From Kangiellaceae bacterium (GTDB lineage: Bacteria; Pseudomonadota; Gammaproteobacteria; Enterobacterales; Kangiellaceae): a DNA stretch of 64,000 bases. Each line of letters begins with the position of its first letter. Position 1 is the stretch's first letter. The position numbers were made by a program, and so were the translations under genes. This document shows positions 41,673 to 45,903 of the stretch, piece by piece. Under the pieces are notes generated by a model that made no database searches, was not told the DNA's origin, and saw only the letters and a program-made list of their open reading frames with translations. The stretch lies in assembly GCA_026196875.1 (NCBI GenBank), contig JAPHTP010000004.1, forward strand, positions 62,001-126,000. Direction: 5' to 3'.

Positions 41673-41957
41673 CTAGTACAATTTATCTGCAGCCAAACGT
41701 AAATCAGCATCCGGCAAAAACTGATCACTTATCACCAAAATAGAATTTAGATTATTCCTTAACTTATTCAACTCAATATCGCCAGGCTTCAGTGCCGTTT
41801 GCAACAAATGTAACGCCATATCAGCTAATAACACTCTTTGCTTTTCCAACCATTCCTCGTCGCCTTTTTTTGCTTTTAAAGATAAGTAATGCGACTCCAC
41901 TTGTGCATGGATTTCCCAACTAGTTTTAATAATTTTTTCTCTATTTATGTTACTCAT
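41673..41957 (-). CDS. Small helical hypothetical protein
   Basis: I start at the ATG at 41957, preceded by GGAAGTG; the longer frame would run back into the ABC-F gene. The 94-residue product is entirely helical and polar, with leucine spacing that suggests a small bundle. It follows the ABC-F gene by 56 bp, across a hairpin. Function unknown. Confidence 0.55.
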   Translation of the reverse strand: MSNINREKIIKTSWEIHAQVESHYLSLKAKKGDEEWLEKQRVLLADMALHLLQTALKPGDIELNKLRNNLNSILVISDQFLPDADLRLAADKLY

Positions 41958-41981
41958 AAATTCACTTCCAATTTGTCGCTC

Positions 41982-42002
41982 GGGAAGAGCGGAGCGCTTC
42001 CC
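41982..42002. repeat. Hairpin with GAGCGnAGCG core, second copy
   Basis: GGGAAG and CTTCCC arms enclose a core reading GAGCGGAGCG on the plus strand. The same core, with T in place of one G, forms the loop of the hairpin at 11047-11079. It lies between the ABC-F stop and the next start and may be a terminator or mRNA end protector. Confidence 0.45.
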
Positions 42003-42013
42003 AAGCAATGATT

Positions 42014-43747
42014 TTACTCTACCTGACTCCAAAGTACTTCAAGTTCCTCTCGCCACTCTTTTTGAAGGTTGGGCTTTTGGAACTTAGGCTTTCTTTGTAG
42101 ATCTTCTTCAAGTTTTAACTCTAGCAATTCAATTCTTTGCAATATGTCTTCATTTCTAGAATCACTGACCTTTTCATTTGAGTTACCTGGAAATTCAATC
42201 GAAGTGTCAACTTTATCTTCTAGCAAGCTTTGATAAAATGCATCGGGTTCAGGGAGCTCAATCAATCGACCTTTCTGAATACAAAGCCATCTCGTCGCAA
42301 TCTGATCTAGAAACTGCCTGTCATGGCTAGTTATTAGCAAGGTTGCCCCAGACTCCATTAGTTGTTCAGTAAGCTCTTCTTTACCTTGCAAGTCAATATG
42401 GTTAGTCGGCTCATCCAATATTAAGAAATTTGGTTGATTAAGAGAAAAAGCCATAAACATTAGCCGCGCTTTTTCTCCGCCACTTAAACTACCAACCTCG
42501 CGGTCAAATTCTCTATATTGAATGCCGGCATTAATAAGCGCTCGCTTAAGCTCTTCTTCGTTGGCATTTGTATTGCTGCGTAACCAATCTAGCCTCGAGT
42601 CCTCGCCGACCAGACTCATCAATTCTTGATCATAAAAACCAAGTTCGGCTCTTGGATTGAATCGAATCCTATCGTCAAAAACCTCACTGGATTTAAATCG
42701 TTCTCGTACCAGATTTAGCAAAGTCGATTTACCACAACCATTCTCCCCCAGCAAAGCGACACGCTCACCCGGTTTAATCGAAATTGATTCAATTCGATAG
42801 AGCTCTCGTTCTTCATTTGGCGTGATTACAATTAAGTCATCTATAGCTAAAACTTGCTTTGCAGAAAGGCTTTGATCGTTTAGCGACAGCTTTAACCCTG
42901 AACCTTGGGTAACAAATGTTTTTTCAGCCTCTAGCTTGTCAACTCTTTTTAAAATCGATTTGGATTTTCTAGAAAGATCTTCATTATCATACTGATGACC
43001 CCAAACTGCCAATCGTTTTGCGGTCTTTTGCAAACGGTCGATTTCCTTTTCTTCAACTCGGCGGCGCTTCTCTGCGTCGACATCCATTTTTTCCAAAGCA
43101 ACTCTCGCTTCAGAATAAGCAAGGTCAAATTGGTAGCTTTTCTGATCTCGAATAAAAATAGTTTTATCGCACACGCTATCTAACAACTGCGCATCGTGCG
43201 AAATCATTAATACCGCACATTTACACTCGGTCTTTAAGAAATTTTCGAGCACTAGCATGGCTTTGATGTCCATATGGTTACCCGGCTCGTCCATTAACAA
43301 AATGTCCGGATCATTGATGAGTGCTTTTGCGATCAACACTAAATTCTGTTGACCACCGCTCATGGATTGAATTTTTTGCGTTAGCTGAGCTTGATTAAAC
43401 CCCAAGTTGAAAAGCTGGCTTTCAGCCCGCCACCGGTTGTACTCGCGTTCCTCCTCTGGCATTGCGGATACTACTGCGTCAACAGCACTCGAGTCAGTCA
43501 GCTCTTGTGGTACAAACTGATCAACATGGCCGATGCTAAGTTGATTGAATTTTCTCACTTCACCTGAATCTGCTTGAAGTCTTCCACTGATCAATCCGAA
43601 CAGTGTACTTTTACCACATCCATTATGGCCAACTAGACCAACTTTTTGTTTAGCGTTAATCACTAAATTTAGATTGTCGAATAAAGACTTTTCGCCATGT
43701 GCGAAAGAAACATTAAGAATTTGTATTAAAGCGTTCATGATATTCAT
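42014..43747 (-). CDS. ABC-F family ATPase with leader-controlled expression
   Basis: This 577-residue soluble protein has two ATP-binding cassettes and no membrane helices. ABC1 has GHNGCGKST, MSGGQQ and a deviant Walker B, DEPGNHMD. ABC2 has GENGCGKST, LSGGEK and the regular DEPTNHID. The basic, coiled linker between them (about 225-285) is the part that enters the ribosome in this family. Housekeeping ABC-F proteins tune translation; others protect ribosomes from antibiotics. The long leader with a small peptide gene and hairpins favours an inducible, protective role (inference). The start ATG lacks a clear ribosome-binding site; the ATG at 43738 is an alternative. Confidence 0.85.
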   Translation of the reverse strand: MNIMNALIQILNVSFAHGEKSLFDNLNLVINAKQKVGLVGHNGCGKSTLFGLISGRLQADSGEVRKFNQLSIGHVDQFVPQELTDSSAVDAVVSAMPEEEREYNRWRAESQLFNLGFNQAQLTQKIQSMSGGQQNLVLIAKALINDPDILLMDEPGNHMDIKAMLVLENFLKTECKCAVLMISHDAQLLDSVCDKTIFIRDQKSYQFDLAYSEARVALEKMDVDAEKRRRVEEKEIDRLQKTAKRLAVWGHQYDNEDLSRKSKSILKRVDKLEAEKTFVTQGSGLKLSLNDQSLSAKQVLAIDDLIVITPNEERELYRIESISIKPGERVALLGENGCGKSTLLNLVRERFKSSEVFDDRIRFNPRAELGFYDQELMSLVGEDSRLDWLRSNTNANEEELKRALINAGIQYREFDREVGSLSGGEKARLMFMAFSLNQPNFLILDEPTNHIDLQGKEELTEQLMESGATLLITSHDRQFLDQIATRWLCIQKGRLIELPEPDAFYQSLLEDKVDTSIEFPGNSNEKVSDSRNEDILQRIELLELKLEEDLQRKPKFQKPNLQKEWREELEVLWSQVE

Positions 43748-43750
43748 CTT

Positions 43751-43806
43751 ATTAAAAGGCAGGTCTCAGCCCTGCGGGTTATTGGTTTCGGCGTGTGCCG
43801 ACCAAA
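43751..43806 (-). promoter_or_regulatory. Hairpins directly before the ABC-F start (candidate attenuator)
   Basis: On the minus strand GCAGG / CCTGC (43775-43759) with a 7-nt loop is followed by CTTTTAAT, a weak terminator shape ending 4 bases before the ABC-F ATG. Just upstream, CGGC / GCCG (43800-43789), extended by TTGGT / ACCAA around a two-base bulge, forms a second hairpin. The segment TTAGCCCT (43855-43848) can pair with AGGGCTGA (43773-43766) and so break the terminator-like stem. Confidence 0.5.
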
Positions 43807-43966
43807 TAACGCAGATGAATACTTAGCAATTGATAGGTGATTTACTTAGGGCTAATTTACTCTCGTTTTAGCCTTTAATATGTAAACCCCATTTGATTGG
43901 AAGTATTGTGATCTGATTTAACAGATCGAATTGTTTTTCTAATCATTCAGCCCGTATTTCATCGCG

Positions 43967-44035
43967 TTAGTTAACTGCGGACTGAGGGCGTAGATTAGAA
44001 AGGTAGCGAGCAAAAGCTAATTGGCTCAATTTCAT
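43967..44035 (-). CDS. Leader peptide of the ABC-F gene (22 residues)
   Basis: A perfect AAAGGAGG lies 9 nt before an ATG that opens a 22-codon frame: MKLSQLAFAR, then YLSNLRPQSAVN, then TAA. It is too short for usual gene finding. Its ribosome-binding site is the strongest in the neighbourhood, and it lies about 220 bases upstream of the ABC-F start with hairpins between. Leader peptides of this kind stall drug-bound ribosomes and expose downstream genes in several ABC-F, erm and msr systems. The function here is inferred from layout. Confidence 0.6.
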   Translation of the reverse strand: MKLSQLAFARYLSNLRPQSAVN

Positions 44036-44364
44036 CAGAATAATCCTCCTTTGTTTTAAATGCATAAGTTGGCCATATGCCTTCCATTATGGGCGCTATT
44101 TCAACAGATCTTGCCTCAAATTCAAATAGCTAAAATGTCTGAAAGCACTAATTGTCTACTTTTTTCGAACAATGCTTTCTGCATTACACTGTTTTTTGAT
44201 TGATTAATCAACAATAAACTGGTTTTGTCGGCAGAATTACAAACAGACGATTCTGCTATGGGTATCAACTACACTTTATAAATGCGAGTTTTTCCGACCT
44301 TATAACTCCTTTTTAATGTTGCAGAGATACAAAAAATCCGATTAACCAACAACAGGATGGGGAC

Positions 44365-45903
44365 ATGAATAAACCAGTTATCGCGGATAACAAACCTAAA
44401 GGTGTCGAACTAAAGAAAGGCGAAGATTACTATTTTTGCACCTGCGGACGATCCAAAAACCAACCGTTTTGCGATGGGTCTCATAAAGGCACATCATTTA
44501 CACCAAAAGCTTTCCAAGCAGATGACGACGGCACAGCCTATTTATGCGCATGTAAACATACAGCTAATGCGCCATTTTGCGATGGCACACATAAAAAGTT
44601 CACTAGTGAGCAAGTGGGCAAGGAAGGGCCAGGAGTTCAAATCCAGGCCGGCCAAATTCCGACAGCAGAGCCCACACCAGAAGAACCCACTGTAGCCTAC
44701 ATTCACGAATTAGCTAAAAATGGGCTTTCTAAAGTAGGCCATCATGGCCCCATGACTTCAATGGGGGTACCACGTAATCAATTACCTCATTGGGATGATA
44801 TACAGATCATGGTCGCGCAGATGGCGCGTAAACCTTTAATGGAAGATGCGAATGTAGATACAAAACTGATCATCGGTCCAAGAGCCGATAAGCCACTTAT
44901 ACTCAATATTCCATTATTTGTATCAGATATGAGTTTTGGCGCGCTTTCCGAAGAAGCCAAAATATCACTGGCTCGTGGTGCCAATATGGCGGGAACCGGT
45001 ATTTGTTCCGGCGAGGGGGGTATGCTGCCGGAGGAGCGCGAAAATAACTCTCGCTATTTTTACGAACTTGCTAGTGCCCAATTCGGCTACAGGGAAGAAT
45101 TACTCAAAGACGTCCAGGCGTTCCATTTTAAAGGTGGCCAGGGAGCAAAAACAGGTACAGGCGGACACTTACCCGGCAACAAAAATATTGGCAAAATTTC
45201 TCAGGTACGTGGCATTGAGGAAGGTAGCCCTGCGGTTTCGCCACCGACTTTTAAAGATCTTAGAAGCGTCGATGATTTCAAGCGTTTTGCCGATAGAGTA
45301 AGAGAGGTATCAGGCGGGATCCCTATTGGCTTTAAATTAAGTGCCAACCATATCGAACAAGATATTCAGTTTGCCCTGGATGCGAGCACTGACTACATTA
45401 TTCTTGATGGCCGAGGCGGCGGCACGGGGGCGGCTCCAGAAATCTTCCGTGACCATATCAGCGTGCCAACTATACCGGCCTTAGCAAGAGCGAGACGTTA
45501 CCTTGATAACAAAGGGGTTTCCGGCGAAGTCACTTTGATTATTACCGGCGGATTAAGAACGCCGATTGATTTTGTTAAAGCCATGGCACTTGGAGCAGAT
45601 GGAGTGGCGGTTTCTAATAGTGCTATGCAAGCAATCGGTTGTGTAGCAGCACGCATGTGTAATACCAATAATTGTCCAGCCGGAATTGCGACTCAAAAAC
45701 CTGAATTGAGAAAAAAACTCAATATTGATAACTCAGCCAGTCGGCTCAAAAATTTCTTTGAAGCTTCGGTTGAGCTAATGCAGGTAATGGCTCGGGCGTG
45801 TGGGCACCACAATTTGTCTGATTTTAGCAGGGAGGATCTTGCCACCTGGCATTATCAAATGGCGCGCTTGGCTGGAATAGAATTTTCTGGATTGGATGAA
45901 TAA
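44365..45903 (+). CDS. Fusion of two CDGSH iron-sulfur domains with an FMN glutamate-synthase-like domain
   Basis: This 512-residue protein starts with two mitoNEET-type motifs, C25 to H40 (CTCGRSKNQPFCDGSH) and C61 to H76 (CACKHTANAPFCDGTH). Each should bind a redox-active [2Fe-2S] cluster through three Cys and one His. The rest, from about 110, is the FMN-binding alpha/beta barrel of glutamate synthase, with KGGQGAKTGTGGHLPG and the [3Fe-4S] cysteines C426, C432 and C437 (C-x5-C-x4-C). The amidotransferase domain is absent, so glutamine is not the donor. The natural reaction is unknown. AGGATGGGG lies close before the ATG. Confidence 0.9.
   Translation: MNKPVIADNKPKGVELKKGEDYYFCTCGRSKNQPFCDGSHKGTSFTPKAFQADDDGTAYLCACKHTANAPFCDGTHKKFTSEQVGKEGPGVQIQAGQIPTAEPTPEEPTVAYIHELAKNGLSKVGHHGPMTSMGVPRNQLPHWDDIQIMVAQMARKPLMEDANVDTKLIIGPRADKPLILNIPLFVSDMSFGALSEEAKISLARGANMAGTGICSGEGGMLPEERENNSRYFYELASAQFGYREELLKDVQAFHFKGGQGAKTGTGGHLPGNKNIGKISQVRGIEEGSPAVSPPTFKDLRSVDDFKRFADRVREVSGGIPIGFKLSANHIEQDIQFALDASTDYIILDGRGGGTGAAPEIFRDHISVPTIPALARARRYLDNKGVSGEVTLIITGGLRTPIDFVKAMALGADGVAVSNSAMQAIGCVAARMCNTNNCPAGIATQKPELRKKLNIDNSASRLKNFFEASVELMQVMARACGHHNLSDFSREDLATWHYQMARLAGIEFSGLDE

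Follow-up and report, generated by a model that had tools for sequence, protein, structure and literature searches.

A probable ribosome-operated translation attenuator upstream of an ABC-F gene in Aliikangiella and its relatives

For a gene encoding an ABC-F ATPase on the minus strand of a 64,000-nucleotide (nt) stretch of a Kangiellaceae genome (contig JAPHTP010000004.1, positions 62,001 to 126,000; the whole stretch is hereafter called the window) the question arises how its translation is controlled. The gene (42014..43738) offers two in-frame ATG codons, at 43747 and 43738, of which the second was taken as the start because the relatives point to it. As the original prediction for this locus had stated, a clear ribosome-binding site is missing: neither ATG has a good one when judged by eye. 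The same prediction had proposed a ribosome-stalling layout, consisting of a leader peptide and alternative hairpins that control the ABC-F gene. Based on sequence comparisons and structure models, the region 44052-43738 (minus strand) is probably a ribosome-operated translation attenuator. Leader peptide and alternative hairpins were recovered, with leaders in 53 of 54 upstream regions and covarying helices, whereas the particular switch built on the segment TTAGCCCT is not conserved. All features described below lie on the minus strand unless stated otherwise.

The Leader ORF and Its Conservation

The ideal Shine-Dalgarno sequence that had been predicted, AAAGGAGG (44045..44052), was located 9 nt before the ATG at 44035, and this ATG opens the predicted leader open reading frame (ORF) of 22 codons (43967..44035), which encodes MKLSQLAFARYLSNLRPQSAVN and ends with a stop codon. 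The motif AAGGAGG occurs six times on both strands of the window, but only the copy of the leader is followed by an ATG start at a distance of 3-11 nt; of the remaining copies, three stand before GTG or TTG and two before no start codon. From the leader stop codon to the likely ABC-F start at 43738 the spacing is about 230 nt.

Within the genus of the window the ABC-F gene was present in two of the seven genomes searched, namely the window's own and Aliikangiella coralliicola. The two ABC-F proteins are 75% identical and their genes share 69% of the bases (1191/1725), whereas the leader ORF is identical in 66 of 69 bases (96%) and in 21 of 22 residues; within the coding region, stretches of 69 columns have at most 60 identical ones. 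Similarly high values were obtained for the 3' side of the leader hairpin (28/31) and for the segment 43830-43805 (25/26, 96%), compared with 44/100 in the spacer. When 40 genomes of the family were searched for copies of the leader, E fell below 1e-40 at two places; the match ranking third had an E of 0.0036. Upstream of the leader, the segment 44135-44060 shares 57 of 75 bases with A. coralliicola and carries the inverted repeat GCTATTT/AAATAGC; it may be a promoter or a 5' hairpin.

Among 394 order-level genomes, 46 contained the ABC-F gene at an E of at most 1e-70. For a first set, 38 upstream regions were taken from 30 of the order-level genomes (the window's included) and from eight of 51 plasmid-collection records, and a ribosome-binding site followed by an ORF of 22-28 codons was found in 37 of them; the exception (L069, from genome G303) is taken up below. 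Overall, the leader with its ribosome-binding site was found in 45 of the 46 genomes and in all eight plasmid-collection records (53 of 54 upstream regions), which confirms its conservation across relatives. The distant relatives with a leader are about 37-42% identical in amino acids to the ABC-F of the window, and their leader ATG is likewise preceded by AAGGAG with G or A as the next base. Named carriers are Vibrio, Photobacterium, Rahnella, Ewingella, Pantoea, Proteus and Morganella; at the DNA level, two records of Klebsiella pneumoniae matched the leader of a relative (98% covered, 82-83% identical), as did one record of Aeromonas caviae (99.6%). The leader of Vibrio sp. THAF191d (MTKCELHFARFFSNHASSSFTGIVLR) and that of the window have F8-A9-R10-x-x-S13-N14 in common, the codon numbers being identical. 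None of 5426 Escherichia coli genomes matched 80% of the gene when that of a relative (L071) was used as query, the rows shown being short pieces of ettA, and the leader was without a match in this species as well. In 369 class-level genomes the window's own genome alone holds the gene at an E of 1e-85. No match was obtained in viral contigs with a pattern taken from the start of the Aliikangiella leader, or in phages with one Vibrio-type leader. One relative (G321, contig C15:34402-36057) carries an ABC-F copy with a single in-frame TGA, and its leader ORF is open.

For a coding signal in the leader, single-base codon changes were counted between leaders differing by at most 30% in groups of equal leader length; these groups mix lineages and the leader pairs are not independent. 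The synonymous fraction amounted to 0.61 in the 28-codon group and 0.43 in the 26-codon group versus 0.26 expected. Synonymous change that keeps the peptide in these two groups, together with the strong ribosome-binding site, would also be compatible with a functional small protein, the RNA structures then serving RNA stability or constitutive low expression only. Across clades, however, the peptide differs widely, whereas its codons largely retain their pairing, and we consider a small protein very improbable.

RNA Elements between Leader and Gene

The 325-nt RNA folds at -82.5 kcal/mol, compared with -62.6 kcal/mol (standard deviation (sd) 4.8) for shuffled sequences (z -4.2; 0 of 100 as stable). 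No Rfam family matched the window or six further loci at its gathering score, weaker matches lying far below. The fold places a small hairpin, P0 (GAGC..GCTC; 44008..44027), within the leader, and a hairpin at a like position (helix 1) occurs in distant leaders with 74.7% of the alignment cells paired. Leader codons constitute region 1 (43978..44001; TTTCTAATC, TCAGTCCG), the 5' side of hairpin 1:2, whose 3' side (CGGGCTGA, GATTAGAAA) is found at 43936..43954. Region 2 (TAACGCGATGAA; 43958..43969) begins at the leader stop codon, is identical in A. coralliicola and is predicted to pair with region 3 (GTATTCATCTGCGTTA; 43807..43822). Region 3 can alternatively pair with region 4 (AGATGAATATC; 43739..43749), the ABC-F start region, which it would thereby mask, and helix 2:3 has bases in common with helix 3:4. 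In both Aliikangiella the pairing between the stop-codon segment 43969-43958 (TAACGCGATGAA) and 43819-43807 (TTCATCTGCGTTA) is kept; TTCATCTGCGTTA pairs with GATGAA at the ABC-F start as well.

Two inner hairpins belong to the start-masking structure: one of the junction itself (GTTATT..AATAAC, CGGC..GCCG; 43778..43810) and a second one (GCAGG..CCTGC; 43759..43775) followed by CTTTT, which is the terminator-like stem of the original prediction. This second hairpin with its CTTTT scores terminator-like in the window, and control at the level of transcription is frequent among resistance-type (ARE) ABC-F genes (PMC12421871). A mechanism of the vmlR, msrD and cplR type, in which the last stem would be an intrinsic terminator whose formation is blocked by a stall in the leader, was therefore weighed. 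The stem is present in the window, but the U-run is absent in A. coralliicola (CCTGCCAAAATG) and does not directly follow the matching stem in any of 34 aligned distant leaders; in the Aeromonas-like leaders there is no more than a short stretch of T (ATTT or ATTTT), located a few bases downstream. Since a U-run directly after the stem is thus found in the window only, the transcription terminator was rejected and transcription attenuation appears very unlikely.

Two further predicted elements are likewise present in the window but not conserved. The spacer hairpin GATCTG..CAGATC (43910..43927; arms 43927-43922/43915-43910) is replaced by a hairpin of different sequence in A. coralliicola. The segment TTAGCCCT (43855-43848) can pair with AGGGCT of the terminator-like stem as proposed, but is missing in A. 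coralliicola, and the pair was rejected as a conserved switch.

Covariation of the Competing Helices

For covariation an alignment of 34 distant leaders (A3) was established from the 38 first-set regions, excluding the two Aliikangiella, L069 and the near-copy L079. Helices other than those predicted by RNAalifold (see below) were derived from folds of single sequences, L071 serving as reference, and counted afterwards, so the fractions of paired cells lean towards the structure; the shuffled alignments do not keep relatedness. The OFF form (P0, 1:2, 3:4 and the two inner hairpins; 44 pairs) had 83.6% of its cells paired, compared with at most 44.5% for slid versions, and both-side changes were seen in 18 pairs versus 10.9 in shuffled alignments, none of 500 reaching this number. 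The ON form (P0, 2:3a, 2:3b and one inner hairpin) had 86.5% of its cells paired, with 14 pairs changed on both sides versus 7.6 (0/500); its helix 2:3a reached 97.2%, slid versions at most 48.0%. Further pair types were not beyond chance in either the OFF form (71/500) or the ON form (285/500). Helix 1:4, in which leader codons pair directly with the ABC-F start region, was paired in 91.3% of the cells (2/500). RNAalifold predicted 14 pairs on A3, comprising seven outer pairs of 1:2, three of a small hairpin inside 1:2 and four of one inner hairpin. Competing helices thus covary in the distant leaders, while the peptide varies widely between clades.

In a swap test with 52 leaders, mean duplex energies of the arms were compared with those of shuffled arms and of arms exchanged between clades; the arms were cut by hand, with offsets for Aliikangiella that differ from the rest, and percentages below give the shuffles as strong as the native mean. 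The two Aliikangiella reached -22.9 (1:2), -20.5 (2:3) and -13.4 kcal/mol (3:4) versus -10.2, -10.3 (sd 2.6) and -7.5 kcal/mol in shuffles, shuffled arms equalled the native strength in 0, 0 and 2.5% of cases, and arms swapped across clades in none. In a mixed group (27 leaders), which holds all leaders outside the other groups and is largely enterobacterial with some Vibrio-type genomes, the values were 1.5% (1:2), 0.2% (2:3), 0.9% (1:4) and 14% (3:4). The Vibrio group (8) gave 1.3% (1:2), 1.9% (2:3), 0% (1:4) and 17% (3:4); swapped arms were often as strong here (1:2 33%, 2:3 55%, 1:4 20%, 3:4 53%), so that conservation alone, not covariation, speaks in this group. For the Aeromonas-like group (14) the shuffles amounted to 14% (1:2), 0% (2:3), 4% (1:4) and 75% (3:4), the swaps to 1.5%, 1.5%, 2.7% and 47%, respectively; in 13 of these 14 leaders the codons contain GCTCTTGC, to which GCAAGAGC, immediately upstream of the ABC-F start codon, is exactly complementary. 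The single leader L103 showed 0% for 1:2 and 2:3 and 10% for 3:4. By prediction and covariation the masking helix would accordingly be 3:4 in Aliikangiella and, weakly, in L103, 1:4 in the Vibrio and Aeromonas-like groups, and 1:4 with a weak 3:4 in the mixed group. In every group, therefore, the start-masking arms have a competitor in leader codons or in the leader stop segment, and the masking helix appears to differ from clade to clade.

A covariance model built from A3 was applied to 16 gene holders that had been held out, 14 of them from one genus. Each of the 16 gave a single match, located at the gene (E 3e-44 to 0.25; six above 0.01, at 0.011-0.25), and three A3 members included in the search (G082, G213, G392) were matched as well. 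None of 15 genomes without the gene (12 of the order, three of the window's genus) was matched, nor was G303. A search of 76 kb ranked the two Aliikangiella leaders at the top, with E of 0.03 and 0.04 (next 0.56). The match of the window rests mainly on the segment of the ribosome-binding site; that the Aliikangiella leader and the others share an ancestor is therefore a conclusion based on position, layout and peptide motif. The 369 class genomes gave no match, a result which is uninformative because what is apparently this same set contains the gene in the window's own genome only.

Proposed Mechanism

In the absence of a ribosome, 1:2 and 3:4 would form and ABC-F would be off. If the leader were translated to its end, the terminating ribosome would sit on region 2 and 3:4 would again form. 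A ribosome stalled near codons 8-14 (FARYLSN) would cover region 1 and leave region 2 free, so that 2:3 could form, 3:4 would open and ABC-F would be translated. In other clades the mask would be, instead or in addition, the direct 1:4 helix, and a ribosome stalled over region 1 would free region 2 or region 4. The likely signal would be a drug or another agent acting at the peptidyl transferase centre or the exit tunnel of the ribosome, and ABC-F would relieve the leader stall.

The effect of a ribosome was modelled with equilibrium folds in which its footprint was masked at six P-site codons, an increase of at least 0.1 being counted as opening; opening profiles along the leader refer to 18 of the 52 leaders. 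In the window, the value for the start region rose from 0.42 to 0.62-0.64 with the P-site at codons 8-11 and was 0.42 at the stop codon.

It is also possible, though clearly less probable, that the leader senses the general state of translation, i.e., slow elongation, a shortage of aminoacyl-tRNA, or a polyamine or other metabolite, instead of an antibiotic. Leader peptides commonly sense small molecules or tRNA, and most of the leaders found here end in Leu-Arg-stop. No run of one residue exceeds three in the leaders, however (SSS or RRR in some), none is kept across clades, and the controlled gene encodes an ABC-F protein, i.e., a member of a family of translation factors.

Several results weigh against an attenuator of the proposed kind. 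In the masking model, the footprint opened the start region in 18 of 52 native versus 108 of 208 shuffled leaders; this control is weak because the shuffles kept regions 1 and 4, but the outcome does not support the attenuator. The start region of A. coralliicola was not opened at all. The cores of 2:3 and 3:4 are identical in both Aliikangiella, which hence provide no covariation for these helices, and 1:4 is absent there (-4.0 kcal/mol) and in L103. On A3, helix 1:4 showed no clear covariation (both-side changes 150/500, covariation score 30/500). Helix 3:4 was not clearly above shuffled arms in the Vibrio (17%) and Aeromonas-like (75%) groups, and in the Vibrio group neither 2:3 nor 3:4 was better than cross-clade swaps. 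The covariance model missed both gene-holding Aliikangiella at an E of 1 or less, the 27-codon group lacked a synonymous excess (0.27 versus 0.27 expected), and L069 (G303) holds the ABC-F gene without a leader. In the alignment, an inverted repeat, seen by eye, stands in the place of the L069 leader.

Relation to Known Attenuators

For ermB (PMC11264731) and ermC (PMC10219788) a stall in the leader peptide shifts the RNA from a start-masking to an alternative hairpin. Two properties of the ermC type were found here: a leader with a strong ribosome-binding site of its own that is kept in relatives (53 of 54 upstream regions) and, by prediction and covariation, mutually exclusive helices of which one masks the start of the target. 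The likeness to ErmBL and ErmCL concerns this arrangement, here deduced from sequence; the target, on the other hand, is an ABC-F ATPase and not a 23S rRNA methyltransferase, and the hosts are Gram-negative. In vmlR, cplR and msrD, as at this locus, the ABC-F gene is preceded by a leader ORF and by alternative RNA structures (PMC9226507, PMC10201436, PMC10314930). These systems use an intrinsic terminator, whereas no conserved terminator was seen here. In vmlR of Bacillus subtilis and cplR of Clostridioides difficile very short upstream ORFs of three codons (MIN and MRI, compared with 22-28 codons in the present leaders) are combined with terminators, and the Shine-Dalgarno sequence of the gene is masked as well (PMC9226507, PMC10201436). 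A further Gram-negative leader ORF ahead of a translation-controlled gene is toiL of E. coli, which senses ribosome-targeting antibiotics and controls translation of topAI downstream; unlike the present leader, it controls a toxin-antitoxin gene and also involves Rho termination (PMC12121999).

In the available parts of the open-access literature, a scope outside which preprints and most subscription papers fall, no description of a leader for this ABC-F subfamily was found. The chances seem about even that the leaders represent an undescribed class of translational attenuators, retained across the GTDB order to which the Aliikangiella family belongs together with enterobacteria, vibrios and aeromonads. 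Leader codons of this class would act either as an anti-ribosome-binding-site (1:4) or as one element of a four-arm switch. Such a class would control a Gram-negative ABC-F subfamily, which would thereby be marked as an inducible factor of ribosome protection that senses a ribosome inhibitor dependent on the nascent chain.

The ABC-F Gene and Its Neighbors

Matches of the ABC-F protein among PDB sequences include YheS, "ExpZ" (6ha8, which we take to be VmlR), YbiT, PoxtA and EttA. The best NCBIfam model was NF000355 ("ribosomal protection-like ABC-F") for all eight proteins scanned, the window's included, and its curated cut-off of 380 was not reached by these proteins (303-350 bits; the L104 stretch is cut at its end). 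The protein may act as an inducible ribosome protector. A subfamily that the gene family would fit is PAF1, one of the ABCF subfamilies and predicted to be a novel ARE (Murina et al. 2019, PMC6723617). This putative assignment is based on the distribution: Vibrio and Klebsiella records carry the gene, and none of the 5426 E. coli genomes matches 80% of a relative's gene. In the available portion of the main text of that paper the words uORF (upstream ORF), leader and attenuation do not occur. Resistance conferred by this subfamily has so far been a prediction (PMC6723617), and the conserved leader, which apparently responds to ribosome stalling, offers a direct route to the inducer and to testing ribosome protection by the subfamily. 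If its members do protect ribosomes, susceptibility tests without induction could overlook the effect.

Directly behind the ABC-F gene lies a gene of about 96 amino acids (41673-41963); the frame 41673-42032 had no NCBIfam or Pfam match. The small gene was present in nine of 61 relatives and is not tied to ABC-F, because seven of the nine carriers lack this ABC-F. On the other side, the divergent neighbor (44365-45903, plus strand) encodes a protein that combines a glutamate-synthase-like domain with a Cys-rich N-terminus; the latter presumably resembles CDGSH iron-sulfur domains.
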